A stretch of DNA of 64,000 nt from Microbacteriaceae bacterium PS02067. GTDB lineage: Bacteria > Actinomycetota > Actinomycetes > Actinomycetales > Microbacteriaceae. Positions 6,531 to 31,423 of this stretch are shown one piece after another. The notes under the pieces were generated by a model. It was given only the letters and a program-made list of their open reading frames with translations. It did no database searches and had not been told where the DNA came from. The stretch covers positions 1-64,000 of the forward strand of contig JASCPG010000005.1 in the NCBI GenBank assembly GCA_029960085.1, written 5' to 3'. The number at the start of each line of letters is the position of its first letter. Position 1 is the stretch's first letter. Made by a program: the position numbers and the translations under genes.

Positions 6531-7745
6531 TCAGCGCCGCTCGTCGAGGGCATCGACGAGATGCTCGGCGATCGCGAGTGAGGATGTCGCGCCGGGGGAC
6601 GGGGCGTTGCGCACCAGGGTGGTGGAGCTCGTCTCGTCGATCGCGAAGTCGTCGAGCAGGCGCCCGGAGGCATCCATCGCCTGCGCGCGGATGCCACGGA
6701 CGAGGCGCCTCGCGCGGGCGCCCTCGAGGGCGGGGACGTAGCGCTGCGCCTCCTGCAGGAAGAAGCGCTGCGAGAGCACCGTCCGGGCTTCGCGCACCGC
6801 GCTGCCCGCGTTCGCGGCGGAGAAGCGCCAGAACGCGCCGTCGGTCAGCGTCGCCGCAAGATCCCGGGGTGAGAGCCCCAATCCCCGGTATCCCTCGCGT
6901 GACAGCGACAGGAAGGCGTTGGGCCCCACGGTCATCTCGCCATCGTGGCGCTTCGTGAGGTGCACGCCGAGGAAGGGGTACCTCGGATCGGGCACGGGGT
7001 ACACGAGTCCCTGCAGGATGTCGCGGTACGCGGATTCGAGCAGGAAGTACTGTCCGAAGAACGGCACGATGCTGGGATGCCGGTCGCCGCCGGAGCGGCG
7101 CGCGACGCGGTCCGACTGGAGCCCCGCGCACACGAAGACGTGATCGGCGCTCATCGGACCGGCATCCGTGTGGACCGTCGCCCGCCCGGAGCCCCGCTCG
7201 ACACCCGTCACCTCGCGGCCGAACTCGACGCGTCCGCCCGCCGCCGTGATGTCCTCGATGAGCGCGCGCGTCACGGCGGCGTAGTCGGTGATCGCCGTGG
7301 TGGGGGACACGAGCGCCGCCTGTCCGACGGCTTGCGGCTCGATGTCGCGGATGCCGGCCGCATCCGTCAGACGGACGCCCGGCACCCCGTTGGCCTGCGC
7401 ACGCTCGTGGATGTGTTGCAGACGCGCCTCCTCCGCATCGTCGAGGGCGACGACGAGCTTGCCGCACTCGACATAGGGGAGCGACTTCTCGTCGCAGAAG
7501 TCCTTCAGCAGCGACACGCCGCGGCGGCACAGCCGGGCCTTGAGGCCGCCGGGCTCGTAGTAGAGGCCGGCGTGGACGACGCCCGAGTTGTGGCCCGTCT
7601 GGTGCGCGGCCGCGCGGTCCTCCTTCTCGAGGACCGTGACACTGCTCGACGGGAACCGTCGGGTCAGCTCTCGGCCGACGGCGGCGCCGAGGATCCCGGC
7701 ACCCACCACGACGAACGACTGCGTCGACGTGCCGCCGGCGCTCAT
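6531..7745 (-). CDS. lhgO: L-2-hydroxyglutarate oxidase
   Basis: LhgO is an FAD-dependent oxidase or dehydrogenase that turns L-2-hydroxyglutarate back into 2-oxoglutarate, passing electrons to the membrane quinone pool in E. coli. The 404 residues are the family length. An N-terminal dinucleotide-binding GAGILG (15-20) is followed by the family-typical HNSGVVHAGLYYEPG near 50-65. The start is ATG at 7745, overlapping the acetyltransferase stop by ATGA, so the two are one transcript with the acetyltransferase first. This is a revealing neighbour: WbpB/WlbA-type sugar dehydrogenases can dispose of NADH by reducing 2-oxoglutarate to L-2-hydroxyglutarate, which LhgO would recover. A closely related FAD oxidoreductase with another hydroxy-acid substrate is the alternative. 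Confidence 0.88.
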   Translation of the reverse strand: MSAGGTSTQSFVVVGAGILGAAVGRELTRRFPSSSVTVLEKEDRAAAHQTGHNSGVVHAGLYYEPGGLKARLCRRGVSLLKDFCDEKSLPYVECGKLVVALDDAEEARLQHIHERAQANGVPGVRLTDAAGIRDIEPQAVGQAALVSPTTAITDYAAVTRALIEDITAAGGRVEFGREVTGVERGSGRATVHTDAGPMSADHVFVCAGLQSDRVARRSGGDRHPSIVPFFGQYFLLESAYRDILQGLVYPVPDPRYPFLGVHLTKRHDGEMTVGPNAFLSLSREGYRGLGLSPRDLAATLTDGAFWRFSAANAGSAVREARTVLSQRFFLQEAQRYVPALEGARARRLVRGIRAQAMDASGRLLDDFAIDETSSTTLVRNAPSPGATSSLAIAEHLVDALDERR

Positions 7746-8344
7746 GCGACGAGGCTCAGCGTCTCGCCGTCCTGGGCATAGCGCTCCCCGGTGTCGGGGC
7801 AGACCCAGAGGTCGCCTTCTGCGGCGAGCGGATGCCCGGTGCGCCCGACCCAGCCGATGCGGCGGGCAGGTACGCCCACCACCAATGCGTGAGCGGGGAC
7901 GTCCTTCGTGACCACCGCGCCGGCGGCGACGAGCGCCCACTCGCCGACGCTCACCGGAGCGACGCACACCGCGCGGGCACCGATGGACGCGCCGCGCCCC
8001 ACGGTCACGGCCACGGCGTGCCAGTCGTCGGTGCCCTTCGGCGAGCCGTCGGGGTTCGCCGCGCGCGGGTACTCGTCGTTCGTGAGCACCGCGGCAGGTC
8101 CGATGAAGACACCGTCGCCGAGCACCGCGGGCTCGTACACCAGCGCGTAGTTCTGCACCTTGCAGGCATCCCCCAGAACCACCCCAGGGCCGATGTAGGC
8201 GCCGCGGCCGATGTTGCAGTCGGCGCCGAGTCGCGCATCCTCGCGGACCTGGGCGAGGTGCCAGACCCGGGTGCGTGCGCCGAGCGTCGCGCGCTCGTCG
8301 ACATCGGCGGACGGTTGGACGATCGGGGCGTCGGGCGTGGACAT
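7742..8344 (-). CDS. WbpD/WlbB-like amino-sugar N-acetyltransferase (left-handed beta-helix)
   Basis: This 200-residue protein is built of hexapeptide repeats that fold as a left-handed beta-helix. Segments such as NIGRGAYIGPGVVLG, KVQNYALVYE, VFIGPAAVLTN and GAVVTKDVPAHALVVGVPAR match the WbpD/WlbB group. Those enzymes acetylate the 3-amino group of a UDP-2-acetamido-3-amino-glucuronate using acetyl-CoA. The C-terminal tail has the CPDTGERY pattern that closes many of these proteins. The start is ATG at 8344 because an ideal Shine-Dalgarno AGGAAGG precedes it; the ATG 15 bases upstream would overlap that site. The gene overlaps lhgO by four bases and is divergent from the long EPS operon that holds a matching dehydrogenase and aminotransferases. 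The exact sugar is inferred. Confidence 0.8.
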   Translation of the reverse strand: MSTPDAPIVQPSADVDERATLGARTRVWHLAQVREDARLGADCNIGRGAYIGPGVVLGDACKVQNYALVYEPAVLGDGVFIGPAAVLTNDEYPRAANPDGSPKGTDDWHAVAVTVGRGASIGARAVCVAPVSVGEWALVAAGAVVTKDVPAHALVVGVPARRIGWVGRTGHPLAAEGDLWVCPDTGERYAQDGETLSLVA

Positions 8345-8558: not shown

Positions 8559-11500
8559 ATGGGGACTTCTCAGCGCGGCGTCTACGTCGGCAAGGCGCGA
8601 TGGCGGAGGGCGGCGGCGATGCTCGGCGCCGCCGCCGTGCTCGTCGCGACGCTCGTGGTCACGTCACAGCCTGACCAGGCGACGGCGGCGAGCCCGTGCG
8701 GTGCCGGCATCAACGCCATCGCGTGCGAGAACCGTCAGCCGGGCACTGATCCGTCGGTGTGGGACATCGACGGCGCCGGCGACCCGTCGATCCAGGGGTT
8801 CGCGACCGACATCTCGGTCAACGCGGGCAATCGCATCGATTTCAAGATCGACACCCCGGCCTCGAACTACACGATCGACATCTACCGCACGGGCTGGTAC
8901 CAAGGACTCGGCGCCCGTCACATCGCCTCCGTCACGCCGTCGGCAACGCTGCCTCAGCGCCAGCCGGAGTGCATCACAGATGTGACCACGGAGCTCTACG
9001 ACTGCGGTACGTGGGGGGTGTCGGCGTCGTGGAACGTCCCCACCACGGCCGTCTCGGGCGTGTACATCGCTTCGCTCAAGCGAACCGACACCGGTGGCCA
9101 GAGCCACATCATCTTCATCGTCCGCAACGACGGCAATCGCTCGGATGTGGTCTTCCAGACCTCCGACACGAGCTGGCAGGCGTACAACACGTACGGCGGT
9201 GCGAGCTTCTACCAGGGTGCGGCCAACGGTCGCGGCTACAAGCTCAGCTACAACCGGCCGTTCGCCACACGCAACTGGGTGCAGGGGCGGGACTTCTACT
9301 TCAGCTCCGAGTACGCGACCGTGCGCTTCATGGAGCGCAACGGCTACGACGTCTCCTACGTGTCCGGTATCGACTCCGCTCGCTATGGCGGCGAACTGCT
9401 CAACCACAAGGTGTTCATGTCGGTCGGGCACGACGAGTACTGGTCGGGAGCGCAGCGCGCGAACGTCGAGGCAGCGCGCGACGCAGGCGTGAACCTGCAG
9501 TTCCTGAGCGGGAACGAGGCATACTGGCGCGTGCGGTGGGAACCCTCGGCGGATTCATCCCACACGGACTACCGGACCCTCGTGTCGTACAAGGAGACCT
9601 GGGGCAATGCCGCCAACAAGGGCGGCGGCAAGATCGACCCGTCGCCGGAGTGGACCGGCACATGGCGCGATCCGCGATTCGCCGACAGTTCGACCGGGGG
9701 CCACCTTCCGGAGAATGCGCTCACCGGCACCATGTACATGGCCAACAACTCCGACCTCCCGGTCACCGTCTCGGCCGCCGAAGGCAAGACACGGCTGTGG
9801 CGCAACACGCCGCTTGCATCCATGGCATCCGGAACGACGACCGCTCTGGCGCCGCACACGGTCGGCTACGAGTCCAATGAGGACATCGACAACGGGTTCC
9901 GGCCCGCAGGGCTGATCCGGCTGTCGACGACGGTCGGGGCGACGCCGGAGTATCTGACTGACTACGGCAATGTGGTCGTGGCGGGTACGACGACGCATCA
10001 CCTGACGCTGTACCGCGCCTCGAGCGGCGCACTCGTCTTCTCGGCGGGTAGCGTTCAGTGGGGCTGGGGGCTCGACGCCGAACACGACGGCGACGGTGCC
10101 GCCGCGGACAGCCGCATGCAGCAGGCGCAGGTGAACCTGTTCGCCGACATGGGCGCGCAGCCGACCACCCTGATGTCGACGCTCAAGGCGGCGACTGCGA
10201 GCTCCGACCGGACCAACCCGACCGTGAGCTTCACATCGCCGGCAGCGGGGGCATCACTGGCATCCGACTCCAACATCACCGTCACCGGCACCGCCGCCGA
10301 CGTCGGGGGCGTCGTCGCGGGTGTCGAGGTCTCGCTCGACGGAGGGCAGAGCTGGCACCCGGCCACAGGGACCACCCAGTGGTCCTATTCGGGTGTGCTC
10401 CGCGGCTCGGGTGCGGCGAGCATCCGCGCCCGCGCGATCGACGACAGCGCAAACTTCGATCGCGCCGGAACCTCGCTGGCGGTCACCGCGGCCGGTCCCT
10501 ACACCTTCTTCGGGTCGGCCGTTCCGGCGACCGCTTCGGCCGATGACAGCGACCCGGTCGAGCTCGGGCTGCGCTTCACGCCGGAATCCGACGGCTTCGT
10601 CACGGGCGTTCGGTTCTTCAAGGGCGGCGCGAACACGGGTACCCACGTCGGCTCGCTCTGGGGCCCCGACGGCACGCGGATGGGAACCGTCACGTTCACC
10701 AACGAGACGGCCACGGGATGGCAGACGGCGACGTTCGCCTTGCCGATCACGGTGACGGCAGGACAGACCTACACGGTCTCCTACACGGCGCCGAAGGGCG
10801 GCTACGCGATGCAGGCGCGCTACTGGCCCTACGCCGCGACGCCGGCGTCGCCGCTCTCGGTCGGCACCGGCCTCGGAGTGGACGCGCCCGGTGTGTTCGG
10901 GGCGGCCGGTGCCCGCCCGACCGCAGTGTGGTTCGATTCCAACTACTTCGTCGACGTCGTGTTCTCGAGCTCGGACACCTCGCCGTTGCGGGTGCTGTCG
11001 CGTACCCCCGCAGCCGATGCAGGCAGCGTGGACCCGTCCGCAACCATCGCGCTCACTCTCAGTCGCGCGGCCGATCCTGCGACGGTCGGCCTCGCCGTCG
11101 CCGACAGCTCCGGCAGGGCCGCGGCCGGCAACGTGACCTACGACGCCGCATCCCGCTCGATCCGCTTCAGCCCGAGTACGCCGCTCGCGCCGCAGACGAA
11201 GTACACGGTGACCCCTTCCGCAAAAGATGCCTCGGGCCGCGCCCTCGAGAGTGGGGCGGCATGGTCGTTCACGACGAGGGGAGCGGATCTGCCCGAGGGC
11301 ACGTGTCCGTGCAGTCTGTTCCCGGAGAGCACGGTGCCCGCGATCGCATCGACGGCCGATCCAGATGCCGTCACGCTCGGCGTGAAGGTCACGGTAGGCG
11401 CGTCGGGTACCGTCTCCGGCCTGCGCTACTACAAGGGGCGGGCGAACACCGGAACGCACGTCGGCATCCTGTGGAGTGCGACCGGCTCCGAACTGGCGCG

Positions 11501-14243
11501 TGCCACCTTCACCGATGACACGGCGGAGGGCTGGCAGGTCGCCACCTTCAGCACTCCCGTCTCGGTCGCTGCCGGCACCACGGTCGTGGCGTCGTACACC
11601 GCTCCCGCCGGTGGATACGCCGTGACCACCGGTCGGTTCGCGTCGCCGTACGCTCGCGGCCCCCTGTCCGTCCCTGCCAACGGAGCGGTGTACACCTACA
11701 CGGGCGGGTTCCCGACATCGCCCTCGAGCACCGACTACGGCGTGGACCTCGTCTTCCAGACCGGGCCGGCGGCTCCGACCGTCGTATCCCTGTCGCCGGC
11801 CGCGGGTGCCACCGGCGTCGCCACCGACGCCGTGGTGTCGGTGAGCTTCTCGACACCCGTGAAGCCGATCAACGGGGCCACCGTCACGAGCGGGGGAGCG
11901 GCAGTCGCAGGATCTTGGTCGCTGGATGCCACGGCGACGACGGCGACCTTCTCGCCGACGAGTGCTTTGCCTGCGGGCGCCCAGATCGCGGTCTCGCTCA
12001 CGGGCATCCGCTCCACCGAAGGCGTCGCGGGAACGGATGTGTCGTGGTCCTTTGAGACTCGGGCGAACGAAGCCGTCACGCGGTTCTTCTCCGGCGCCGT
12101 TCCTCCGCAGGTCGATGCCGATGCATCGCCGGTCGAGTTGGGGCTCGCCTTCCAGACCTCGACCGCCGGCGAGGTGCGCGCGATCCGCTTCTACAAGGCG
12201 ACCGGCAACGGCGGTGTGCACACGGGCAGCCTCTGGGGGCCGAACGGTCAGCGGCTCGCGACGGTCACCTTCGCGAACGAGACGGCGACCGGATGGCAGA
12301 GCGCGACCCTGGACAGCCCGGTCACGATCACGCCCGGCGCCGTCTACACCGTGTCGTACTTCGCTCCGCAGGGGCATCCGTCGTATGCAAGCGGGGCACT
12401 GGCGGGGTCCGTCACAAGTGGTCCCCTCTCGACGATCGCCGGCAACAACGGCCGTTATCGCTACGGCAACGGCGGAGTCGTGCCGACGCAGTCGTGGCAG
12501 TCGTCCAACTACTTCGTCGATGTGGAGTTCGTCGCCAGCACCAACGCGGTGCAGGTGACGAGCACGTCGCCCGAGCGCGGCGCAGGCGCGGTCGCCACGA
12601 CCGTGACGCAGGTGACGGCGACGCTCGTCGGGGCGACGGCTTCGTCGGCCCCGACGCTCACCGTGGCGGGGTCGAGTGGTTCGGTTGCGGGGACGTCATC
12701 GTTCACTCCGTCCTCCGGTCTGCTGTCCTTCACTCCGAGCGCGGCGCTGCCCGCCGAGACTTCCTTCACCGCGACCGTCCGCCTCGGATCCTCGACGCTG
12801 GACACCTGGCAGTTCACGACCGCGCCGGCAGTGCAGACGCTGTTCGGGGATGAGACACCGAATGTGGCCGTGACCACCGACACCGATCCCGTCGAGGTCG
12901 GCACCGCGTTCACCGTTTCGCAGCCGGGCTCGGTCACGGCGCTGCGGTTCTACAAGGGTTCGACCAACACGGGCAGCCATCGCGGGTCGCTGTGGAGCGC
13001 CGACGGGACCTTGCTTGCGCAGGTGGCCTTCACGGGTGAGACCGCGTCGGGGTGGCAGCGCGCTGAACTCGCGACACCGGTGATGCTGGTGCCCGGTCAG
13101 CGCTACGTGGTGTCGTACTTCTCGAGCACGGGGCGATACGCCTACACGACCGCGTACTTCAACACGGAGCGGACGTCGGCCTTCATCAGCGCACCGGCCG
13201 GCGCGAACGGTCTCTATGCGTACGGCCCGAACGGTGGGTTCCCGACGGGATCATTCCGGTCGACGGCGTACTTCGTGGATGCGGAGATCCGCTTCACCGC
13301 GACAGGGGGCGGGACTGCGGCGCCGAGCGCGACGCCGACGCCGACTGCGACGCCCACGCCCACGCCCACGCCGACGCCGACTGCGACGCCCACGCCCACG
13401 CCCACGCCGACGCCGACTGCGACGCCGACGCCGACTGCGACGCCTACGCCGACTGCGACGCCGACGCCGACGCCCACGCCGACCCCGCCCGCCGTCAGTT
13501 CGGCGGCCCCGGCTGGAGGGGCCACGGACGTCGCTCCGACCGCGACGGTCGCAGCGACCTTCGATCGCGACGCGAGCAGCCCGCAGATCGCCGTCACCCG
13601 CGGTTCGACGGCGATCGCCGGTGCCACCGCGTACGATGCGTCGACCCGGACGGCCACCTTCACTCCGACCGCGCCCCTCGAGTGGGCGACGGACTTCGCG
13701 GTGCGCGTCACGAGCGGTGGCGCGGCGGTCACGGGCGGTCAGTGGAGCTTCCGCACTGCGGATGCCCCTCGGGTACTCACCGCCCAGACGATCTTCGGAG
13801 ACGCAACCCCGCAGAATCCCTGGTGGAACGATCCGGACTCCGTTCAGGTCGCGACACGCTTCAGCGTGAGCACCGCCGGATCGGCGACTGGCATCCGCTT
13901 CTACAAGGGCGATGCGAACGCGGGTGTGCACACGGGGTATCTGTGGAAGGCCGACGGCACTCTTCTCTCTCAGATCCAGTTCTCGGGAGAGACGGCGTCG
14001 GGGTGGCAGCAGATGTCCTTCACGACGCCCGTCCATCTCGAGCCCGGGGTCGAATACCGAGTCGGACTGCACAGCACCACGGGGCGCTATGCCGTCGATC
14101 TCGGAGCGCTGGCGCAGCCGACGACGTCGGGGGTGTTCAGCACACCGGCCAACGGGTCCGCGTACACCTATTCGACGGGCTTCCCGGACAGCACGAGTAC
14201 ACACAACTACTGGGTCGACGTCACGTTCACGCCGAACCCGTAG
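8559..14243 (+). CDS. Giant secreted protein: DMFase-like domain, Ig-like domains, five DUF4082 repeats
   Basis: This is an exported 1894-residue multidomain protein. A signal peptide covers about 1-45 (RWRR, a hydrophobic run, then ATAAS). Residues ~50-555 resemble the large domain of the N,N-dimethylformamidase beta-subunit family, with the typical GHDEYW near 289-294. An Ig-like domain follows at ~570-640. Five DUF4082 modules lie at about 645-806, 918-1068, 1173-1325, 1425-1580 and 1741-1894, each with an F/YYKG or FYKA core and a SLW...T.WQ pattern. Four SbsA-type Ig-like (Big_5) domains separate them, and a Thr-Pro-rich linker sits at ~1588-1644. There is no LPXTG or C-terminal membrane anchor, so it is probably released or held by the polysaccharide. 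The start is ATG at 8559 with GGGGA upstream. It leads the EPS operon; a role in binding or modifying the surface polymer is inferred, not shown. Confidence 0.85.
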   Translation: MGTSQRGVYVGKARWRRAAAMLGAAAVLVATLVVTSQPDQATAASPCGAGINAIACENRQPGTDPSVWDIDGAGDPSIQGFATDISVNAGNRIDFKIDTPASNYTIDIYRTGWYQGLGARHIASVTPSATLPQRQPECITDVTTELYDCGTWGVSASWNVPTTAVSGVYIASLKRTDTGGQSHIIFIVRNDGNRSDVVFQTSDTSWQAYNTYGGASFYQGAANGRGYKLSYNRPFATRNWVQGRDFYFSSEYATVRFMERNGYDVSYVSGIDSARYGGELLNHKVFMSVGHDEYWSGAQRANVEAARDAGVNLQFLSGNEAYWRVRWEPSADSSHTDYRTLVSYKETWGNAANKGGGKIDPSPEWTGTWRDPRFADSSTGGHLPENALTGTMYMANNSDLPVTVSAAEGKTRLWRNTPLASMASGTTTALAPHTVGYESNEDIDNGFRPAGLIRLSTTVGATPEYLTDYGNVVVAGTTTHHLTLYRASSGALVFSAGSVQWGWGLDAEHDGDGAAADSRMQQAQVNLFADMGAQPTTLMSTLKAATASSDRTNPTVSFTSPAAGASLASDSNITVTGTAADVGGVVAGVEVSLDGGQSWHPATGTTQWSYSGVLRGSGAASIRARAIDDSANFDRAGTSLAVTAAGPYTFFGSAVPATASADDSDPVELGLRFTPESDGFVTGVRFFKGGANTGTHVGSLWGPDGTRMGTVTFTNETATGWQTATFALPITVTAGQTYTVSYTAPKGGYAMQARYWPYAATPASPLSVGTGLGVDAPGVFGAAGARPTAVWFDSNYFVDVVFSSSDTSPLRVLSRTPAADAGSVDPSATIALTLSRAADPATVGLAVADSSGRAAAGNVTYDAASRSIRFSPSTPLAPQTKYTVTPSAKDASGRALESGAAWSFTTRGADLPEGTCPCSLFPESTVPAIASTADPDAVTLGVKVTVGASGTVSGLRYYKGRANTGTHVGILWSATGSELARATFTDDTAEGWQVATFSTPVSVAAGTTVVASYTAPAGGYAVTTGRFASPYARGPLSVPANGAVYTYTGGFPTSPSSTDYGVDLVFQTGPAAPTVVSLSPAAGATGVATDAVVSVSFSTPVKPINGATVTSGGAAVAGSWSLDATATTATFSPTSALPAGAQIAVSLTGIRSTEGVAGTDVSWSFETRANEAVTRFFSGAVPPQVDADASPVELGLAFQTSTAGEVRAIRFYKATGNGGVHTGSLWGPNGQRLATVTFANETATGWQSATLDSPVTITPGAVYTVSYFAPQGHPSYASGALAGSVTSGPLSTIAGNNGRYRYGNGGVVPTQSWQSSNYFVDVEFVASTNAVQVTSTSPERGAGAVATTVTQVTATLVGATASSAPTLTVAGSSGSVAGTSSFTPSSGLLSFTPSAALPAETSFTATVRLGSSTLDTWQFTTAPAVQTLFGDETPNVAVTTDTDPVEVGTAFTVSQPGSVTALRFYKGSTNTGSHRGSLWSADGTLLAQVAFTGETASGWQRAELATPVMLVPGQRYVVSYFSSTGRYAYTTAYFNTERTSAFISAPAGANGLYAYGPNGGFPTGSFRSTAYFVDAEIRFTATGGGTAAPSATPTPTATPTPTPTPTPTATPTPTPTPTPTATPTPTATPTPTATPTPTPTPTPPAVSSAAPAGGATDVAPTATVAATFDRDASSPQIAVTRGSTAIAGATAYDASTRTATFTPTAPLEWATDFAVRVTSGGAAVTGGQWSFRTADAPRVLTAQTIFGDATPQNPWWNDPDSVQVATRFSVSTAGSATGIRFYKGDANAGVHTGYLWKADGTLLSQIQFSGETASGWQQMSFTTPVHLEPGVEYRVGLHSTTGRYAVDLGALAQPTTSGVFSTPANGSAYTYSTGFPDSTSTHNYWVDVTFTPNP
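13320..13492 (+). repeat. Thr-Pro/Thr-Ala tandem coding repeat
   Basis: About 170 bases consist of ACGCCC, ACGCCG and ACTGCG units encoding (TP)n with TAT interruptions. This is the flexible linker before the last Ig-like/DUF4082 pair of the giant protein. Blocks recur almost exactly, so the copy number is likely to change by slippage. Confidence 0.85.
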
Positions 14244-14284: not shown

Positions 14285-15364
14285 ATGGCAGAGAAGATGA
14301 AGGCAGTGGTCGTGGGGGCCGGGTACTGGGGGCCCAACCTCGCGCGCAACTTCCGCGCGAGCGCTGATTGGGACCTCGCGGGCATCTGCGATCTCGACGA
14401 GGATCGCGCCCAGGCCGTGGCGAACGGCGTCGGCGGCGTACCGGTGTGGACTCGGCTCGACGACGTCCTCGCGGACCCCGACGTGGATGCCATCGCGATC
14501 GCGACACCCGCGCGGACCCATCATCCGATCACCCTTGCGGCGCTGGATGCCGGCAAGCACGTCATGGTCGAGAAGCCCCTGGCCGACACCATCGCGCGCG
14601 GGGAGGAGATGGTGACGCGTGCCGAAGAGTGCGGTCTCGTCCTGATGGCCGATCACACCTACTGCTACACTCCCGCGGTCCTCAAGATCCGCGAGATCAT
14701 CGCCGACGGGGGCCTCGGCGACATCCTCTTCGTCGACAGCACGCGCATCAACCTCGGGCTCATCCAGCCCGACGTCGACGTGTTCTGGGACCTCGCCCCG
14801 CACGACCTGTCGATCATGGACTTCGTGCTTCCCGGCGGGCTCGACACGTCGTCGGTGTCCGCGCACGGCTCCGACCCGCTGCGCACCGGCAAGGCCTGCG
14901 TCGGCTACCTCGCGATGCCGTTGCAGGGCGGCGCGATGGCGCACGTCAACGTCAACTGGCTGAGCCCGACCAAGATCCGGCAGATGGTCATCGGCGGCAC
15001 GAAGCGCACGCTCGTCTGGGACGACCTCAATCCGCAGCAGCGCATCAGCGTCTACGACCGCGGTGTCGACATCGACGCCGTGTCCAAGGAGACGACTCTG
15101 GACCGTCGCGCCGCGAACATCTCGTACCGTCTCGGCGACACCTGGTCGCCCGCGCTCGAGGAGCGTGAGGCCCTCGGCGGTGTCGTGGCGGAGTTCGCCG
15201 CGGCCATCCGCGAGTCGCGCCCCGCACGCACGAGCGGTGACGCGGGCATGCGGGTGCTGTCCGTCCTCGACGCGGCGCAGCGCAGCCTCGCGGCGGGGGG
15301 AGCCCCCGCCCCGATGAATCTCGACATCCCACCCCACACGTCTCGCAGAACGGCAGCAGCATGA
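14285..15364 (+). CDS. Gfo/Idh/MocA-family sugar-nucleotide dehydrogenase (WlbA/WbpB-like)
   Basis: This 359-residue NAD(P)-dependent oxidoreductase has an N-terminal Rossmann motif GAGYWG (11-16), the family EKPL (96-99, Lys97 catalytic) and WDLAPHD (168-174). This pattern is shared with dehydrogenases of polysaccharide loci such as WlbA/WbpB, which oxidise C3 of a UDP-N-acetyl-hexuronate and hand the 3-keto sugar to an aminotransferase. The start is ATG at 14285 with a strong GGAGGAAG in front. The gene ends in an ATGA overlap with the epimerase, so the downstream genes are translationally coupled. The presence of matching aminotransferases and a WbpD-like acetyltransferase supports the pathway. 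A different sugar substrate cannot be excluded. Confidence 0.8.
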   Translation: MAEKMKAVVVGAGYWGPNLARNFRASADWDLAGICDLDEDRAQAVANGVGGVPVWTRLDDVLADPDVDAIAIATPARTHHPITLAALDAGKHVMVEKPLADTIARGEEMVTRAEECGLVLMADHTYCYTPAVLKIREIIADGGLGDILFVDSTRINLGLIQPDVDVFWDLAPHDLSIMDFVLPGGLDTSSVSAHGSDPLRTGKACVGYLAMPLQGGAMAHVNVNWLSPTKIRQMVIGGTKRTLVWDDLNPQQRISVYDRGVDIDAVSKETTLDRRAANISYRLGDTWSPALEEREALGGVVAEFAAAIRESRPARTSGDAGMRVLSVLDAAQRSLAAGGAPAPMNLDIPPHTSRRTAAA

Positions 15365-16359
15365 CCCAGCTCGAAGGAACCCGTGTTCTCGTCACCGGCG
15401 GCGCCGGGACGATCGGCTCCACCCTCGTCGACCAACTCCTCGACGCCGGGGCCGCCCAGGTGAACGTCCTCGACAACCTCGTCCGGGGCCGGCGGGCGAA
15501 CCTCGACGCCGCGCTGGCCACCGGCCGCGTCGAACTCATCGACGGCGACGTCCGCGACGCCAAGCTCGTCGACGACCTCACCGCCGACGCCGATATCGTC
15601 TTCCATCAGGCGGCGATCCGCATCACGCAGTGCGCCGAGGAGCCGCGTCTGGCGCTCGAGGTCCTCGTCGACGGGACGTTCAACGTCGTCGAGTCCGCGG
15701 CGCGGCACAAGGTCCGAAAGCTCATCGCGGCTTCCAGCGCGTCCGTCTACGGCATGGCTGAGACGTTCCCGACGGACGAGCGTCATCACCACGAGAACAA
15801 CGACACGATCTACGGCGCCTCGAAGACCTTCAACGAGGGCCTGGTCCGCAGCTTCCGTGCCATGCAGGGACTGGACTACGTCCTGCTGCGCTATTTCAAC
15901 GTCTACGGCCCGCGCATGGACGTGCACGGACTGTACACCGAGGTGCTCGTGCGCTGGATGGAGCGCATCGCCGACGGCCGCCCGCCGCTGATCTTCGGCG
16001 ACGGCAACCAGACGATGGACTTCGTCTGCGTGCCCGACATCGCACGTGCCAACGTCCTTGCCGCGGGAAGCGACGTCGTGGAGGGCACGTACAACGTCGC
16101 GAGCGGCACCGAGACGAGCCTTCTCGAGCTCGCGCAGGCGCTCCTGCGCGTGATGGATGCCGAGGAACTGGGTGTCGAGCACGGCCCCGAGCGCGCGGTC
16201 AACGGTGTGGTCAGGCGCCTCGCCGACACGAGCGCCGCTCGTGACGACCTCGGGTTCGAGGCGGAGATCGGCCTTGAAGACGGTCTGCGGCAGCTCGTCG
16301 AGTGGTGGCGTCCGCTCCGCGAGGAGATCGCCGCCGGCCGAAGCCTGGTGACGACATGA
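15361..16359 (+). CDS. NAD-dependent sugar epimerase/dehydratase (extended SDR)
   Basis: This is a 332-residue extended short-chain dehydrogenase acting on a nucleotide sugar. The NAD-binding GGAGTIG is at 13-19. The catalytic SSASVYG is near 120, and the YGASK motif gives Tyr151 and Lys155. The segment LRYFNVYGPRMD and the C-terminal substrate half resemble UDP-glucose/UDP-GlcNAc 4-epimerases and related enzymes. ATGA overlaps join it to the dehydrogenase before it and the aminotransferase after it. It probably inverts or dehydrates the sugar that this operon builds; which of these is not decidable by eye. Confidence 0.85.
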   Translation: MTQLEGTRVLVTGGAGTIGSTLVDQLLDAGAAQVNVLDNLVRGRRANLDAALATGRVELIDGDVRDAKLVDDLTADADIVFHQAAIRITQCAEEPRLALEVLVDGTFNVVESAARHKVRKLIAASSASVYGMAETFPTDERHHHENNDTIYGASKTFNEGLVRSFRAMQGLDYVLLRYFNVYGPRMDVHGLYTEVLVRWMERIADGRPPLIFGDGNQTMDFVCVPDIARANVLAAGSDVVEGTYNVASGTETSLLELAQALLRVMDAEELGVEHGPERAVNGVVRRLADTSAARDDLGFEAEIGLEDGLRQLVEWWRPLREEIAAGRSLVTT

Positions 16360-17504
16360 CCGACCGCATCAACGTGATGATCCCCTGGCTGGGCCAGGAG
16401 GAGGCGGACGCCGTCGCCGAGGCGATCGCGTCCGGTTGGGTCGCGCAGGGCCCGCGCGTCGCCCGCTTCGAGGAGGAGTTCGCCGAGGCGATGCAGGCGT
16501 CGTACGCGGTCGCGACGAGCAGCTGCACGACCGCCCTGCATCTGGCCCTCATCGTTGCCGGGATCGGACCCGGCGACGAGGTGATCGTGCCGTCCTTCTC
16601 GTTCATCGCGACGACGAATGCCGTCGCCTACGTGGGCGCCACTCCCGTGTTCGTCGACGTCGACCTCGAGACGGGCAACATGACGGCCGCAGGCTTCCAG
16701 AACGCCCTGACGTCCGCGACCCGCGCCGTCATCGTCGTCGACCAGGGCGGGGTGCCGGTGGACCTCGACCCCATCCGCGAGGTCGCCGACCCGCTCGGCA
16801 TCGTGGTGATCGAGGATGCCGCGTGCGGCGCCGGTTCGACCTACCGGGGTCGCCCCGTCGGCGCAGGGGCGGACATCGCGGCCTGGTCGTTCCACCCGCG
16901 CAAGCTCCTCACGACGGGGGAGGGCGGGATGATCACGACGTCGCGCGCCGACTGGGCGGCGCGCGCGCGTCGTCTTCGCGAGCACGCCATGACCGTGTCG
17001 GCCGCGGATCGCCACCTGAGCGTGCTGCCGCCCGCAGAGGAGTACTCCGAGGTCGGGTTCAACTTCCGCATGACGGACCTGCAGGCCGCGGTGGGGCTCG
17101 TGCAGCTGCGCAAGCTCCCTGCCATCGTCGCCCGACGTCGCGAGATCGCCACGCGCTACCGCGCCGGCATCCGCGGTGTCGACGGGCTTCGCACCGTCGG
17201 CGACCCCGACTACGGGACCGGCAACGTGCAGTCCTTCTGGGTGGAGGTGCAGGACAGCTATCCGACGGATCGTGACGGGCTGCTCGTCGCGCTCGCCGAA
17301 GCGGACATCTCGGCGCGTCGGGGCATCATGTCCACGCACCGTCAGCCGCCCTATCGTGACCTGGCCGCAGCCGGTTCCCTCCCGAACACGGAGCACCTCA
17401 CGGACAACACGCTGATCCTGCCCGTCTACCACACGCTCTCGAACGCGGATCAAGACAGGGTGATCGCGGTCCTGCGAGATCCGCTGAAAGAGGCCATCGG
17501 ATGA
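16356..17504 (+). CDS. DegT/DnrJ/EryC1 PLP sugar aminotransferase 1
   Basis: This 382-residue fold-type I enzyme of the DegT/DnrJ/EryC1/StrS family aminates a keto nucleotide-sugar, usually with glutamate. The PLP-binding lysine is Lys183 in FHPRKLLTTGEGG. The N-terminal half has the expected SSCTTALHLAL and VIVPSFSFIATTNA segments, and EDAACGAG contains the cofactor-ring aspartate. ATGA overlaps on both sides place it between the epimerase and the NeuD-like acetyltransferase. Fed by the upstream dehydrogenase or epimerase, it would yield an amino sugar that one of the two beta-helix acetyltransferases then acylates. Confidence 0.88.
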   Translation: MTDRINVMIPWLGQEEADAVAEAIASGWVAQGPRVARFEEEFAEAMQASYAVATSSCTTALHLALIVAGIGPGDEVIVPSFSFIATTNAVAYVGATPVFVDVDLETGNMTAAGFQNALTSATRAVIVVDQGGVPVDLDPIREVADPLGIVVIEDAACGAGSTYRGRPVGAGADIAAWSFHPRKLLTTGEGGMITTSRADWAARARRLREHAMTVSAADRHLSVLPPAEEYSEVGFNFRMTDLQAAVGLVQLRKLPAIVARRREIATRYRAGIRGVDGLRTVGDPDYGTGNVQSFWVEVQDSYPTDRDGLLVALAEADISARRGIMSTHRQPPYRDLAAAGSLPNTEHLTDNTLILPVYHTLSNADQDRVIAVLRDPLKEAIG

Positions 17505-18130
17505 CCGCCGGGCTGCTCCTTGTGGGGGCGAGTGGCCTGGCTCGTGAAGTCCTCGCGGCGGGGATCACCGGTGTCGTCGGCATCATCGACGACGACGTGG
17601 AGCGCCACGGGAGCGAGATCGCCGGTGTGCCCGTGCTGGGCGGTACCGCCCTCGCGGCGACGAGCGAGGATCAACTGCTCCTGTGCATCGGCCCGAGCGC
17701 GGTGCGCCGCGAAGTCGCACGTCGGCTCATGCGTGCAGGTGTCGACGATGACCGCTTCGAGACGTTCGTCGCGCGTACCGCGCGGATCGGTCGGACGTGT
17801 GATGTCGGGCCCGGTTCGATCGTCCTCGACGGGGTCGTCGTCACCGCTGATGCGCGCCTCGGGCAGCACGTCGTGGTGATGCCGAACTGTACGATCACGC
17901 ACGACGACGAACTCGGCGACTTCGCGACTCTCGCGGCCGGTGTCGCCTTGGGCGGTAGCGTGCACGTCGGCAAGCGTGCCTACGTGGGGATGAACGCCTC
18001 GGTTCGCCAGGGTGTGATGATCGGGAACGATGCCACCATCGGCATGGGTGCGGTCGTGTTGCACGACGTGCCCGAGGGAGAGACGTGGGCCGGTGTTCCG
18101 GCGAGACGATTGGGGAGAGCAGATGACTGA
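17501..18130 (+). CDS. NeuD/PglD-like sugar acetyltransferase
   Basis: This 209-residue acetyltransferase has an N-terminal small Rossmann-like domain (LLLVGASGLAREVL) and a C-terminal left-handed beta-helix of hexapeptide repeats ending in VPARRLG. His134 in NCTITHDDELGDF aligns with the catalytic histidine of PglD, which N-acetylates a UDP-4-amino-sugar; NeuD relatives O-acetylate sialic acid. The gene overlaps the aminotransferase before it (ATGA) and by eight bases the second aminotransferase after it. Sitting between two aminotransferases, N-acetylation of an amino sugar is the likeliest role. Confidence 0.85.
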   Translation: MTAGLLLVGASGLAREVLAAGITGVVGIIDDDVERHGSEIAGVPVLGGTALAATSEDQLLLCIGPSAVRREVARRLMRAGVDDDRFETFVARTARIGRTCDVGPGSIVLDGVVVTADARLGQHVVVMPNCTITHDDELGDFATLAAGVALGGSVHVGKRAYVGMNASVRQGVMIGNDATIGMGAVVLHDVPEGETWAGVPARRLGRADD

Positions 18131-19262
18131 GCAGACGATCACACAGCAGGCGGTTCCGTTCCTCGACCTTGCCGCACAGCAAGCGGAAGTGATGGACGAC
18201 GTGCTCCCTGTGTGGCAGCGCCAGCTCACGGACGCGGCTTTCATCGGCGGCGCGGAGGTCGCCGCGTTCGAGCGCGAATACGCCGACTACATCGGCACCG
18301 GTCACGTCGTCGGCGTCTCGAACGGCACGGATGCCCTCGAGCTGGCGTTCCGCGCCGTCGGCGTCGCTTCCGGCGATGAGGTCATCATGCCGGCCAACAC
18401 GTTCATCGCGACGGCTGAGGCCGTCTCGCGCATCGGCGCTGTCCCGGTGTTCGTGGATGTCGACGACGCGCACCTGCTCATCGACCCGGATGCGATCGAC
18501 GCCGCGGTGACGACCCGCACGCGTGCCATCGTCCCCGTGCACCTCTTCGGGCAGACGGCTCCCATGGCCGAGGTCGCGGCGATCGCCGACCGCCATGGTC
18601 TCGCCGTCGTGGAGGACGCGGCCCAGGCGCAGGGCGCTTCCGGTCCCGCGGGACGCGCGGGCGCCCTCGGGCGCGTCGCGGCGACGAGTTTCTACCCCGG
18701 CAAGAACCTCGGCGCAGCCGGCGATGCCGGGGCCGTCATGACCGATGACGAGGGGCTCGCGGACGTCGTCCGGAACCTCGCCGCGCACGGCAGCTCCGTC
18801 AAGTACGTGCATGACCGCATCGGCATGAACGCCCGTCTGGATGCTGTCCAGGCGACGGTGCTGCGTGCGAAGCTGCGGCGGCTCGAGGGGTGGAACACCT
18901 CGCGCCGGGCGGCGGCGGCCCGCTACGCGGGCCTCCTCGGCGACATCGCGGGGGTGCGTCTGCCGGAGGTGCGCGAGGGCAACACCGACGTCTGGCACCT
19001 CTATGTCGTCCGCGTCGCGGAGCGGGACCGCGTGCTCGCAGAACTCGGCGCAGCGGGGGTGGGCGCGGGCATCCACTACCCGACCGTCGTTCCGCTCACC
19101 GAGGCATACGCCGGGCTGGGGCACCGCCCGGGCGAGTTCCCCGTCGCCGAAGCGGCCGCGGCATCGATCCTCTCGCTTCCGATGTTCCCGCACCTCACCG
19201 AAGCGCAGCAGGCGCGGGTGGCAGAGATGCTTCGACGCAGCCTCGACGGCGACGGGTCATGA
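18123..19262 (+). CDS. DegT/DnrJ/EryC1 PLP sugar aminotransferase 2 (WbpE-like)
   Basis: This 379-residue aminotransferase of the same family as its neighbour is only distantly similar to it. The PLP lysine is Lys194 in FYPGKNLGAAGDAG. The segments GVSNGTDALELAF, IMPANTFIATAEA and VEDAAQAQGA are typical of the branch containing WbpE and the dTDP-3-amino-sugar enzymes. The start is ATG at 18123, preceded by GGGGAGAGCAG; it lies inside the end of the acetyltransferase gene. The last bases overlap the glycosyltransferase start (ATGA). A second aminotransferase implies either a diamino sugar or two different amino sugars. Confidence 0.88.
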   Translation: MTEQTITQQAVPFLDLAAQQAEVMDDVLPVWQRQLTDAAFIGGAEVAAFEREYADYIGTGHVVGVSNGTDALELAFRAVGVASGDEVIMPANTFIATAEAVSRIGAVPVFVDVDDAHLLIDPDAIDAAVTTRTRAIVPVHLFGQTAPMAEVAAIADRHGLAVVEDAAQAQGASGPAGRAGALGRVAATSFYPGKNLGAAGDAGAVMTDDEGLADVVRNLAAHGSSVKYVHDRIGMNARLDAVQATVLRAKLRRLEGWNTSRRAAAARYAGLLGDIAGVRLPEVREGNTDVWHLYVVRVAERDRVLAELGAAGVGAGIHYPTVVPLTEAYAGLGHRPGEFPVAEAAAASILSLPMFPHLTEAQQARVAEMLRRSLDGDGS

Positions 19263-28620: not shown

Positions 28621-30200
28621 TGCGCATCCATCTCCACGACCTGCTCGCCGAGCGAGCATTCACGCATCCGAACGACCCGGCGCTCACGTCCGGCGATCGG
28701 ACGCTGAGCTACGGAGAGCTGTGGGCGCAGACTCGCGATACGGCGTTGCAGTTGCGCGCTCTCGGCGTCACCCGCGGTGATCGAGTCGCGATCTACCTCG
28801 AGAAGCGTCTGGAGACCGTCGCGGCGATCTTCGGCACGTCCGCTGCCGACGCCGTGTTCGTGCCGATCAACCACGTGCTCAAGCCCGCGCAGGTCGGGCA
28901 CATCCTCGCTGACAGCGGCGCACGTGTGCTCATCACCTCAGCCGACCGTCTCGCCCAGCTGGCGGGCGTGCTGGAGGAGACCGCCGTCACCGATGCGATC
29001 GTCGTCGGCGCCGCCGCTTCCCCCGACGCCGGGCGCGTCGCCGTTCAGGCGTGGCATCCGCAGGGGTCCTCGGAGAGCGCAGAGACTGCCTTTTCCGTCG
29101 AGCTGCCACCCCCGGCGTCCATCGACCTCGACCCCGCGGCCATCCTCTACACCTCCGGGAGCACGGGCAAGCCGAAGGGCGTCGTGCTGAGCCACCGCAA
29201 TCTCATCGTGGGGGCCGAGAGCGTCAGCACCTATCTGCACAACACGAGCGACGACGTCATCCTGAGCGTGCTGCCGCTGAGTTTCGACGCCGGCTTCAGC
29301 CAGGTCACGACCGCATTCGCCGTCGGCGCGCACTGCGTGCTCATGAACTATCTGCTGCCGCGCGACGTCGTGCGCCTGTGCGAGAAGCACGGGGTGACAG
29401 GGCTCACGTGCGTGCCGCCACTGTGGTTGCAGCTGATGTCGGTGCCGTGGCCGGAACCTGTCGCGGCGCGCCTGCGATACTGGGCCAACACCGGTGGACG
29501 GATGCCGCGCAGCACGCTCGACCGCCTGCGGGAGACCTTCTCGGGTGCGGCGCCCTACCTCATGTACGGTCTCACCGAGGCGTTCCGCTCGACCTACCTC
29601 GACCCGGCCGAGGTCGACCGTCGTCCGGACTCCATCGGCAAGGCGATCCCGAACGCCGAGATCCTCGTCCTCCGCCCGGACGGCACCGTCTGCGAGCCCG
29701 GCGAGGAGGGAGAGCTCGTGCATCGGGGAGCCCTCGTGGCACTCGGCTATTGGAACGATGCGGCACGCACGGCCGAGCGATTCCGCCCGATCGTGCGCCC
29801 CGACCAGCCGTGGCGGGCTCCTGAGACGGCGGTATGGTCCGGTGACACTGTCGTGGCTGATGAGGAAGGCTTCCTGCGGTTCGTCGGTCGCGCCGACGAC
29901 ATGATCAAAACGTCCGGCTACCGAGTGAGCCCGACGGAACTGGAAGAGGCCGCGTATGCGACCGGTCTGGTCGGGGACGTCGTGGCGGTCGGGGTGGAAG
30001 ACCCCGCCCTCGGCCAGCGCATCGTGATGGTCGTCACGGCAGCCGGCGACGCCCTCGAGGAGCAGGCGCTCGTCGCCGCGCTGCGGCCGCGTCTGCCCGC
30101 CTACATGCTCCCTTCCCGCGTGGTGATCTGCTCGGAGCTGCCCCGATCCCCGAACGGCAAGTTCGACCGCCCTCTCATCGTCCGCGAGGTATCCGCATGA
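28620..30200 (+). CDS. ANL-superfamily adenylating ligase (exosortase-A-associated type; VinN-like role)
   Basis: This is a 526-residue AMP-forming acid ligase. The ATP loop TSGSTGKPKG is at 178-187, MYGLTE at ~315-320, the hinge region RADDMIKTSGYRVSP near 447 and the catalytic lysine in PNGKFDRP near 514. SFDAGF (221-226) has an Asp at the position that holds the amino group in amino-acid-activating domains, though this alone is not proof. The sequence type matches ligases annotated as exosortase-A-associated. No exosortase or PEP-CTERM signal is seen in the window. It overlaps the polymerase by one base and the decarboxylase by ATGA, and an acyl carrier protein follows. It most likely loads an acid, perhaps an amino acid, onto that carrier. 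Confidence 0.85.
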   Translation: MRIHLHDLLAERAFTHPNDPALTSGDRTLSYGELWAQTRDTALQLRALGVTRGDRVAIYLEKRLETVAAIFGTSAADAVFVPINHVLKPAQVGHILADSGARVLITSADRLAQLAGVLEETAVTDAIVVGAAASPDAGRVAVQAWHPQGSSESAETAFSVELPPPASIDLDPAAILYTSGSTGKPKGVVLSHRNLIVGAESVSTYLHNTSDDVILSVLPLSFDAGFSQVTTAFAVGAHCVLMNYLLPRDVVRLCEKHGVTGLTCVPPLWLQLMSVPWPEPVAARLRYWANTGGRMPRSTLDRLRETFSGAAPYLMYGLTEAFRSTYLDPAEVDRRPDSIGKAIPNAEILVLRPDGTVCEPGEEGELVHRGALVALGYWNDAARTAERFRPIVRPDQPWRAPETAVWSGDTVVADEEGFLRFVGRADDMIKTSGYRVSPTELEEAAYATGLVGDVVAVGVEDPALGQRIVMVVTAAGDALEEQALVAALRPRLPAYMLPSRVVICSELPRSPNGKFDRPLIVREVSA

Positions 30201-31423
30201 CTCCGCACGAACACGCGACCCGCTTCGGCACGATCGACGGCGAGCTCCGCCTCGGCGGCCAACCGCTGAGCCGCGTGGCGGCGCGCGTCGGACAGACACC
30301 GTTCTTCGCGTACGACCGGTCGCTGCTCGACGCCCGAGTCGACGAACTGCGCGGCCTTCTGCCCGCGCGTGTCGAGCTCAGCTACGCCATGAAGGCGAAT
30401 CCCATGCCCGCGCTCGTGCAGCACCTCGCGCGTCGCGTCGACCGCATCGACGTCGCCTCGGCGGGGGAGATGCAGCACGCGCTGGACACCGGCATCCGTG
30501 CCGATCGGGTCAGCTTCGCCGGACCCGGGAAGACCCCCGCGGAGATCCGGCAGGCCGTCGCTGCCGGCATCATCGTCGAGGTCGAGTCGGCGACGGAGCT
30601 CGCGCGCGTCACCGCGGCGGCGGGGCAGCTCGGGGTGCGCGCGCTCGCCGCGGTGCGCGTCAATCCCGATTTCGCCGTCAAGGGCTCGGGTATGCGCATG
30701 GGCGGCGGGCCGCAGCAGTTCGGGATCGATGCCGAACAGGTACCGGACGTCCTCGCGTGCGCCGGCGACGCGGTGGACATCCTCGGATTCCATGTGTTCG
30801 CGGGTTCGCAGAATCTGCAGGCGGACATCATCGCGGAGGCGCAGCGGCGCACCGTCGACCTCGTGACGGACCTCGCCGAGCACCTGCCCGGACCGCTGCG
30901 ATACCTGAACCTCGGCGGCGGTTTCGGCATCCCTTACACCGCCCGCGACCAGCCGCTGGATCTGCGCGCTGTCGCCGAAGGGCTGGCGGAACTCGTCGAT
31001 GGGCCGATCGCCGCGCGATTCCCCGAGGCGAGCCCCGTCATCGAGCTGGGGCGCTTCCTCGTGGGGGAGTGCGGGGTCTACGTCACGCGGGTCGTCGATC
31101 GCAAGGTCTCGCGCGGCAAGACGTTCGTCGTCGTCGACGGCGGCATGCACCACCAACTGGCCGCGTCGGGCAACTTCGGCCAGGCGATCCGCCGCAACTA
31201 CCCGGTCGTCGTCGGCAATCGCGCGACCGATGCGAAGGACGACGATGTCGTGACGGTCGTCGGATGCCTCTGCACGCCACTCGACCTGCTGGCCGACGAC
31301 GTGCCGCTGCCGGACGCCGACATCGACGACCTGATCGTCGTGTTCCAGCAGGGCGCGTACGGACTCACCGCCAGCCCCACCGCCTTCCTCGGACACCCGG
31401 CACCCGCCGAGGTGCTCGTCTGA
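30197..31423 (+). CDS. Fold-type III PLP decarboxylase, carrier-protein-associated type
   Basis: This 408-residue enzyme of the diaminopimelate/ornithine decarboxylase fold binds PLP through Lys66 in SYAMKANP. GFHVFAGSQ and the glycine-rich LNLGGGFGIPY bind phosphate. The C-terminal half has LCTPLD, carrying the active-site cysteine, and the Tyr in QGAYG. The LCTPLD form is that of decarboxylases found with a ligase and a carrier protein (exosortase-A-associated, BtrK and VinO groups), rather than LysA. BtrK and VinO act on amino acids held on a carrier protein. It is in ATGA overlap with the ligase, and the carrier gene begins 25 bases downstream. Confidence 0.88.
   Translation: MTPHEHATRFGTIDGELRLGGQPLSRVAARVGQTPFFAYDRSLLDARVDELRGLLPARVELSYAMKANPMPALVQHLARRVDRIDVASAGEMQHALDTGIRADRVSFAGPGKTPAEIRQAVAAGIIVEVESATELARVTAAAGQLGVRALAAVRVNPDFAVKGSGMRMGGGPQQFGIDAEQVPDVLACAGDAVDILGFHVFAGSQNLQADIIAEAQRRTVDLVTDLAEHLPGPLRYLNLGGGFGIPYTARDQPLDLRAVAEGLAELVDGPIAARFPEASPVIELGRFLVGECGVYVTRVVDRKVSRGKTFVVVDGGMHHQLAASGNFGQAIRRNYPVVVGNRATDAKDDDVVTVVGCLCTPLDLLADDVPLPDADIDDLIVVFQQGAYGLTASPTAFLGHPAPAEVLV

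Follow-up and report, generated by a model that had tools for sequence, protein, structure and literature searches.

Why is a gene for L-2-hydroxyglutarate oxidase joined to a set of amino-sugar genes? The question is raised by lhgO in the first 64,000 nucleotides of contig JASCPG010000005.1 of Microbacteriaceae bacterium PS02067 (this whole stretch is referred to as the window; G+C content 70%). There, lhgO and the gene for a WbpD-like acetyltransferase lie divergent from an operon consisting of a DUF4082 gene, gfoB, a gene for a short-chain dehydrogenase/reductase (SDR), degT1, neuD and wbpE. The answer that we favour, with a probability of roughly one half, is that LhgO is a recycling enzyme recruited for the amino-sugar locus, where the NADH of the SDR/DegT1 step would be cleared as L-2-hydroxyglutarate. 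A strong association ties lhgO to this locus, and its presence follows the form of the SDR.

LhgO and the neighbouring acetyltransferase

The product of lhgO is a predicted L-2-hydroxyglutarate oxidase. It scored 482.7 bits against NCBIfam model NF008726 (cut-off 299) over residues 10–398, which is full length, and 316 bits against the L-2-hydroxyglutarate dehydrogenase of Drosophila (8w75). The residues of the Drosophila enzyme that contact 2-oxoglutarate are Ser88, His92, Tyr289, Leu299, His302 and Arg393, as given in PMC10726252. All six are present in the window LhgO and all six are kept in 134 of 136 LhgO stretches; L059, where a His is replaced by Leu, and L027, which matches in part, are the exceptions.

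The first-pass annotation had described lhgO as overlapping the acetyltransferase gene, opposite an operon with a sugar dehydrogenase and aminotransferases. This arrangement was confirmed: the acetyltransferase stop and the lhgO start share four bases, ATGA, as read in the sequence, and the divergent operon encodes a Gfo/Idh enzyme plus two DegT enzymes. The acetyltransferase shows full-length similarity (residues 9–190, 137 bits) to 3mqg, its best match among solved structures, which is listed as a lipopolysaccharide biosynthesis acetyltransferase and which we take to be WlbB.

CsiD (PF08943) was found in none of 149 genomes of the genus, the window's own included, while the E. coli control was positive. 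On this count, a CsiD/glutarate role for lhgO was rejected for the genus.

Association of lhgO with the amino-sugar locus

Co-occurrence was analysed in the 149 genus genomes, in a family sample of 279 genomes (274 outside the genus) and in an order sample of 133 (124 outside the family). The E value cut-offs were 1e-40 (genus) or 1e-60 for lhgO, 1e-60 for gfoB, and 1e-70 or, in the order, 1e-45 for the SDR. The genome search scores only some candidates per genome and some genomes are incomplete, so that some absences may be misses; all p values except that of the tree test ignore shared ancestry.

Within the genus, lhgO was found in 27 genomes, gfoB in 32, wbpD in 60 and the SDR in 26. Twenty-three genomes contained both lhgO and the SDR (Fisher p 7e-20), and the same 23 contained lhgO together with gfoB. 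The association was examined on a single-gene glmM tree covering 144 of the 149 genomes; G030, G039, G091, G096 and G124 gave no glmM match, and G091 has lhgO, gfoB and the SDR. Comparing dependent with independent evolution of lhgO and the SDR, which undergo 19 parsimony changes on this tree, gave a likelihood ratio (LR) of 73.0 (p 5e-15). A confounding effect of clade is rejected, as the association persists on the gene tree. The corresponding LR for wbpD was 38.2. Where the SDR is missing, wbpD has no association with lhgO (2 of 34 genomes, LR 7.3, p 0.12), and wbpD was therefore rejected as the driver.

The distance between lhgO and the SDR was at most 16 kb in seven of the 23 genus genomes; in nine it exceeded 65 kb on a single contig, and in seven the two lay on different contigs. 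As they are often far apart, linkage alone does not explain the association. Among the 37 sampled genomes with both genes (23 in the genus, 14 in the family), nine nevertheless carry them on the same contig no more than 20 kb apart, which is beyond chance by a naive p of 3e-10, uncorrected for common descent.

The survey for lhgO with the sugar gene set found the association beyond the genus as well. Among the 274 family genomes, lhgO was present in 28, gfoB in 26 and both in 13 (p 3e-8); the SDR was present in 21, in 14 of these together with lhgO (p 3e-11). Of the 124 order genomes, 37 contained lhgO and seven an SDR homologue (E 1e-45); all seven SDR carriers (G502, G439, G445, G485, G484, G514 and G451) also had lhgO (p 1.4e-4).

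The position of lhgO differs between loci. It is located behind wbpD in the window and in Microbacterium memoriense, the closest named relative at the locus (LhgO 77%, GfoB 86%, CoaA 84% identity), between wbpD and the DUF4082 gene in G090 and G113, directly behind wbpE in G203 and G276, at the far cluster end in G011, G017, G045 and G065, and about 2 kb or less from wbpD in G384, G329 and G202. From the similarity to M. memoriense we take the genus to be Microbacterium. A second, divergent locus type, which fell below the SDR cut-off in the family search, was found in G172, G216 and G319 (L398, L399 and L400). Its SDR is 36–39% identical to that of the window and of the SSAS type (named for the catalytic motif described below); genes for two DegT enzymes (one WbpE-like), a Gfo enzyme and hexapeptide enzymes of LpxA-like and of short form lie together with it and lhgO within 20 kb. 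G514 has the DegT–SDR–hexapeptide part of this type, with lhgO 1.7 kb away. In the LhgO tree, from which the partial L027 was left out, proteins of SDR-positive genomes stand in several separate places, as judged by leaf order only and not by support.

The first-pass annotation had named one pattern as speaking against its proposal, namely an lhgO–coaA neighbourhood in relatives that do not have the sugar genes. This pattern was absent from the 28 lhgO loci read in the genus. Off the amino-sugar locus, lhgO adjoins coaA only in G147 (L005) and G078 (L008), both of which have gfoB, SDR, degT1 and wbpE elsewhere; in both, lhgO lies between coaA and a glmS-like gene, recognised by eye. Linkage to coaA as the explanation of the neighbourhood was rejected, since lhgO of the genus occurs in several other contexts (flanks recognised by eye).

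These data bear on the view that LhgO serves an unrelated catabolism and that the co-occurrence reflects a shared lifestyle or co-transfer. Some lhgO copies elsewhere do adjoin transporter-, GntR- or catabolic-looking genes by eye, and among the 80 nearest named LhgO loci gfoB or wbpD is nearby only in M. memoriense, while in seven others no more than weak matches to the SDR or Gfo were seen. Nevertheless, we consider it very unlikely: the association survives the tree-based test and is confined to a single form of the SDR at a single locus, the LhgO proteins involved are scattered over the LhgO tree, and lhgO takes differing positions at the locus.

lhgO follows the form of the SDR

To resolve which gene lhgO follows, the surroundings of gfoB were read in all 58 gfoB-positive genomes of genus and family, some of them on short contigs or as a 4-kb locus. 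M. memoriense L029 is truncated at gfoB and was excluded from the motif count. The SDR shares 70% identity or more with that of the window in 43 genomes, of which 36 contained lhgO; in the other 15 the SDR is less similar or missing, and none of these contained lhgO. By motif class, lhgO accompanied 36 of 46 SSAS-type SDRs, none of five Glu-type SDRs (G054, G390, G346, G381 and G232) and none of seven gfoB genes without an SDR match within 4 kb (G015, G056, G120, G079, G145, G227 and G413; p 7e-7). When the genomes were grouped by hand into lineages, the same comparison gave 11/15 versus 0/9 (p 6e-4).

The five Glu-type SDRs carry Glu at the dehydratase position, as does that of G034, a genus member found at E 1e-45 whose SDR is 36% identical and which has no lhgO. 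For the two Glu-type SDRs that were scored, the best model was the LegB 4,6-dehydratase (207 and 213 bits). The cleanest swap is seen in G054, where GfoB (81%), WbpE (78%), WbpD (76%), DegT1 (73%) and NeuD (68%) are all retained; its SDR is only 39% identical and carries Glu, and lhgO is absent. Both forms also occur within genus g3, with SSAS and lhgO in G150 versus Glu and no lhgO in G346 and G390. Thus lhgO tracks the SDR form: it goes with the type assigned to the epimerases, beside a C4-type aminotransferase, rather than with the dehydratase-like Glu-bearing SDR.

Three of the comparison loci are weaker controls. DegT1 beside gfoB lacks the expected pyridoxal phosphate lysine in G015 (L121), G120 (L123) and G056 (L124), and these gfoB–degT1 loci may be decayed or differ in role. 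GfoB of G413 is only 44% identical. Apparent in-frame stops in gfoB of G113 and the SDR gene of G484 are natural gene ends.

GfoB as a possible source of L-2-hydroxyglutarate

The family model nearest to GfoB is NF040723 (UDP-GlcNAc 3-dehydrogenase), at 148 bits and thus under its cut-off of 450. Among solved relatives, GenD2 (6nor, 74.9 bits) and GnnA (7bvj, 71.5 bits) are both ahead of 3q2k, an entry listed only as oxidoreductase, which we take to be WlbA and which ranks 35th with 49 bits. For the predicted fold of GfoB (predicted local distance difference test, pLDDT, 84.5), Foldseek gave GenD2, 1,5-anhydrofructose reductase and glucose-fructose oxidoreductase first, glucuronide-3-dehydrogenase and GnnA lower, and 3q2k was absent among the 50 folds listed. 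By sequence and modelled fold, GfoB is nearer to the GnnA/GenD2-type sugar dehydrogenases than to WlbA, and the earlier label 'WlbA/WbpB-like' was a loose one.

GfoB itself might keep NADH bound and, like WbpB, use it to reduce 2-oxoglutarate; LhgO would then repair the L-2-hydroxyglutarate so formed. The coincidence of gfoB and lhgO in 23 of the 149 genus genomes (LR 62.4) agrees with this, and all 36 genomes with lhgO and the SDR beside gfoB necessarily have gfoB. The SDR, however, predicts lhgO better. Without an SSAS-type SDR, lhgO is found in none of 12 gfoB genomes of genus and family (including the three with altered DegT1 and G413), and within the genus gfoB is not associated with lhgO where the SDR is missing (0/6, LR 5.4, p 0.25); gfoB as the driver was rejected on these counts. 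GfoB is, moreover, not close to WlbA. That WbpB uses 2-oxoglutarate has been published, and the only measurement of chirality found in the literature, made on the Pseudomonas aeruginosa PAO1 enzyme, gave D-2-hydroxyglutarate (PMC8651671), contrary to the L form stated in the first-pass annotation and not the expected substrate of an L-specific oxidase. A comment in the enzyme nomenclature reportedly gives the L form, and the literature may therefore disagree. A GfoB origin is improbable in our estimate.

The SDR/DegT1 step

The predicted fold of the window SDR (pLDDT 89.2) is like those of UDP-Glc and UDP-GlcNAc 4-epimerases (Foldseek). Its motifs ASSASVYG and YGASK fit the epimerase pattern [ST]..YxxxK without a dehydratase acid/base pair: the Glu/Lys that dehydratases have beside the catalytic Ser/Thr is absent and Ala-Ser is found instead, which places the protein outside the dehydratases according to the motif classes in Table 1 of PMC8987622. 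The cut-off of the GalE model TIGR01179 (262.3) is not reached, and the protein was filed as epimerase-type only, not as GalE itself. Motif and fold decided this predicted assignment.

DegT1 has TlmJ, perosamine synthase and ArnB as nearest relatives, which presumably act at C4, and it was classed as C4 type. The WbpE-like enzyme is nearest to the transaminase 2oga, which we take to be DesV, with WbpE and QdtB close after; its relatives presumably act at C3, hence C3 type. NeuD exceeds the cut-off of its family model (Table 1).

From these enzyme types we infer two modules. In a C3 module, GfoB would oxidise C3, the WbpE-like enzyme would transaminate and the WbpD-like enzyme acetylate; in a C4 module, the SDR would yield a 4-keto sugar to be transaminated by DegT1 with glutamate and acetylated by NeuD. 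A 4,6-dehydratase gives its hydride back to the sugar (PMC8987622) and so needs no outside acceptor. An SDR lacking the acid/base pair for 4,6-dehydration would retain the hydride as NADH once DegT1 has trapped the 4-keto sugar; for this reason, we tentatively let L-2-hydroxyglutarate originate from the SDR acting together with DegT1. The NADH would then be cleared, most likely by the SDR itself, onto the 2-oxoglutarate supplied by DegT1, and LhgO would turn the resulting L-2-hydroxyglutarate back into 2-oxoglutarate, handing the electrons on to a presumed acceptor. That an epimerase-scaffold SDR acts in this manner as a net UDP-sugar C4 oxidase, with an aminotransferase that captures the 4-keto sugar and also provides the 2-oxoglutarate to accept the hydride, is a tentative proposal to which we give somewhat less than even odds.

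Alternatively, the SDR may be an ordinary UDP-sugar 4-epimerase, as its fold and motif match UDP-GlcNAc 4-epimerases, with L-2-hydroxyglutarate raised otherwise by the pathway or a linked activity, for example by NADH driving malate or lactate dehydrogenase on 2-oxoglutarate. Genomes with only gfoB and wbpE (G079, G145, G227 and G413) should then also give NADH, yet they have no lhgO, and DegT1 resembles C4 aminotransferases, which need a 4-keto substrate; we consider the explanation unlikely. In mammals and plants, both dehydrogenases do form L-2-hydroxyglutarate (PMC8206213).

The first-pass annotation had proposed that the locus carries its own recycling enzyme for L-2-hydroxyglutarate produced by a WbpB-like dehydrogenase. 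The tie of lhgO to the locus, the lack of CsiD in the genus and the intact LhgO residues make L-2-hydroxyglutarate recycling the best reading, and this part stands; the dehydrogenase as the source found no support.

Several observations weigh against recycling at the SDR/DegT1 step. In at least nine of the 23 genus genomes, a distance of over 65 kb separates lhgO from the locus. No window-type SDR was matched in four of the 27 lhgO carriers of the genus and in 14 of the 28 of the family, three of which have the second locus type, and the surroundings of several such family copies look catabolic by eye. Conversely, ten of the 46 SSAS-type gfoB genomes have no lhgO match (G019, G047, G123, G409, G314, G185, G200, and G193, G263 and G317 with SDRs at 65% identity), indicating that these loci can do without lhgO or that something else takes its place. 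G451, a genome with 7% estimated contamination, couples lhgO with a Glu-bearing SDR (SSAEVYG) 2.3 kb apart. Finally, the window SDR scores in a near tie with the NCBIfam models GalE (143.9 bits), RmlB (142.8) and LegB (140.2), all under cut-off, and may be an ordinary epimerase.

At L305 and L306, lhgO adjoins genes resembling Ldh_2-type and FAH-type enzymes; at L280 and L281, its neighbours resemble an MHS transporter gene and the gene of a GntR regulator. Both contexts, recognised by eye, are apparently catabolic.

Features of the locus

Coordinates are compiled in Table 1. The large protein with which the locus opens contains DMFA2_C, five DUF4082 stretches, Big domains and a Thr-Pro repeat, and its like heads many related amino-sugar loci. 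Further along, at 30197–31423, the window encodes an exosortase A-associated, PLP (pyridoxal phosphate)-dependent decarboxylase (557 bits against TIGR03099) in an actinobacterial polysaccharide region; an adjoining gene resembles an acyl-CoA ligase by eye.

Table 1. Features of the lhgO/amino-sugar locus in window coordinates.
Feature	Position	Strand	Evidence
lhgO, predicted L-2-hydroxyglutarate oxidase (flavin adenine dinucleotide, FAD; 404 amino acids)	6531–7745	-	NF008726 482.7 bits; 8w75 316 bits
WbpD-like hexapeptide N-acetyltransferase, 200 amino acids	7742–8344	-	3mqg 137 bits; ATGA overlap with lhgO
DUF4082/DMFA2_C/Big-domain protein, head of locus	8559–14243	+	Pfam; matches in many related loci
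gfoB, Gfo/Idh sugar dehydrogenase, GnnA/GenD2-like rather than WlbA-like	14285–15364	+	NF040723 148 bits; Foldseek
Extended SDR, predicted UDP-GlcNAc 4-epimerase scaffold	15361–16359	+	Foldseek; best lhgO predictor among genes tested, LR 73.0
ASSASVYG, catalytic motif of the SDR, with Ser as in GalE and without the acid/base pair of dehydratases	15730–15753	+	Alignment; motif classes of PMC8987622 Table 1
degT1, sugar aminotransferase nearest TlmJ, perosamine synthase, ArnB	16356–17504	+	Nearest relatives
neuD, NeuD/PglB/VioB-family sugar acetyltransferase	17501–18130	+	TIGR03570 185.7 bits, cut-off 160.8
wbpE-like sugar aminotransferase	18123–19262	+	2oga, WbpE 3nu7 and QdtB 3frk among best solved relatives

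Comparison with known systems

The window WbpE-like and WbpD-like enzymes are clear relatives of those in the WbpB/WbpE/WbpD route to UDP-GlcNAc(3NAc)A. The locus differs from this route in its dehydrogenase, which is nearer to GnnA/GenD2, and in the addition of a second aminotransferase, NeuD and the SDR. No nucleotide-sugar 6-dehydrogenase was found among the scanned proteins, which cover part of the window, a genome-wide search not having been made.

A precedent for net C4 oxidation by an SDR is the ArnA–ArnB system for UDP-4-amino-4-deoxy-L-arabinose, in which NADH is formed and the C4 aminotransferase receives a 4-keto sugar. ArnA acts on a uronic acid, which it decarboxylates, and sets the NADH free. 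DegT1 counts ArnB among its closest relatives, whereas the window SDR has a GalE-type motif and is not known to perform a 2-oxoglutarate step. With the UDP-sugar 4-epimerases GalE and WbpP the window SDR shares fold and catalytic motif; unlike them, it is proposed to lose its 4-keto intermediate to DegT1, so that the hydride would not be returned.

The CsiD–LhgO glutarate pathway of E. coli and Pseudomonas putida uses the same oxidase family and, by prediction, the same reaction, but here CsiD is missing from the genus and the neighbours of lhgO are sugar genes. Bacterial L-2-hydroxyglutarate is described in the literature consulted as a product of CsiD. The LhgR paper (PMC8206213) reports lhgO next to genes of glutarate metabolism or to one for a GntR regulator; 'polysaccharide' was not found as a word in its main text. 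Within the open-licence literature searched, no report of lhgO with nucleotide-sugar genes was found.

Recycling of 2-hydroxyglutarate after sugar oxidation is already known in the D form. In P. aeruginosa, the NADH bound to WbpB reduces 2-oxoglutarate to D-2-hydroxyglutarate, and O-antigen drops upon loss of D-2-hydroxyglutarate dehydrogenase (PMC8651671). There too, a 2-hydroxyglutarate-oxidising flavoenzyme recycles a by-product of nucleotide-sugar oxidation. The enantiomer, the oxidising enzyme and the source (WbpB) differ from the present case, in which an oxidase of the L family sits within the locus or co-evolves with it and the SDR is the marker. The P. aeruginosa case lends credibility to the general idea, and the two SDR forms in otherwise matching loci offer a direct natural comparison.

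If our interpretation is true, 4-amino sugars would be made without a dehydratase and without 6-deoxygenation. The interpretation would account for the presence of LhgO alongside the locus and add a case of a biosynthetic locus that brings its own enzyme for metabolite recycling. It would also reveal a second, anabolic source of L-2-hydroxyglutarate in bacteria, tied to surface polysaccharides, and could explain orphan lhgO genes.

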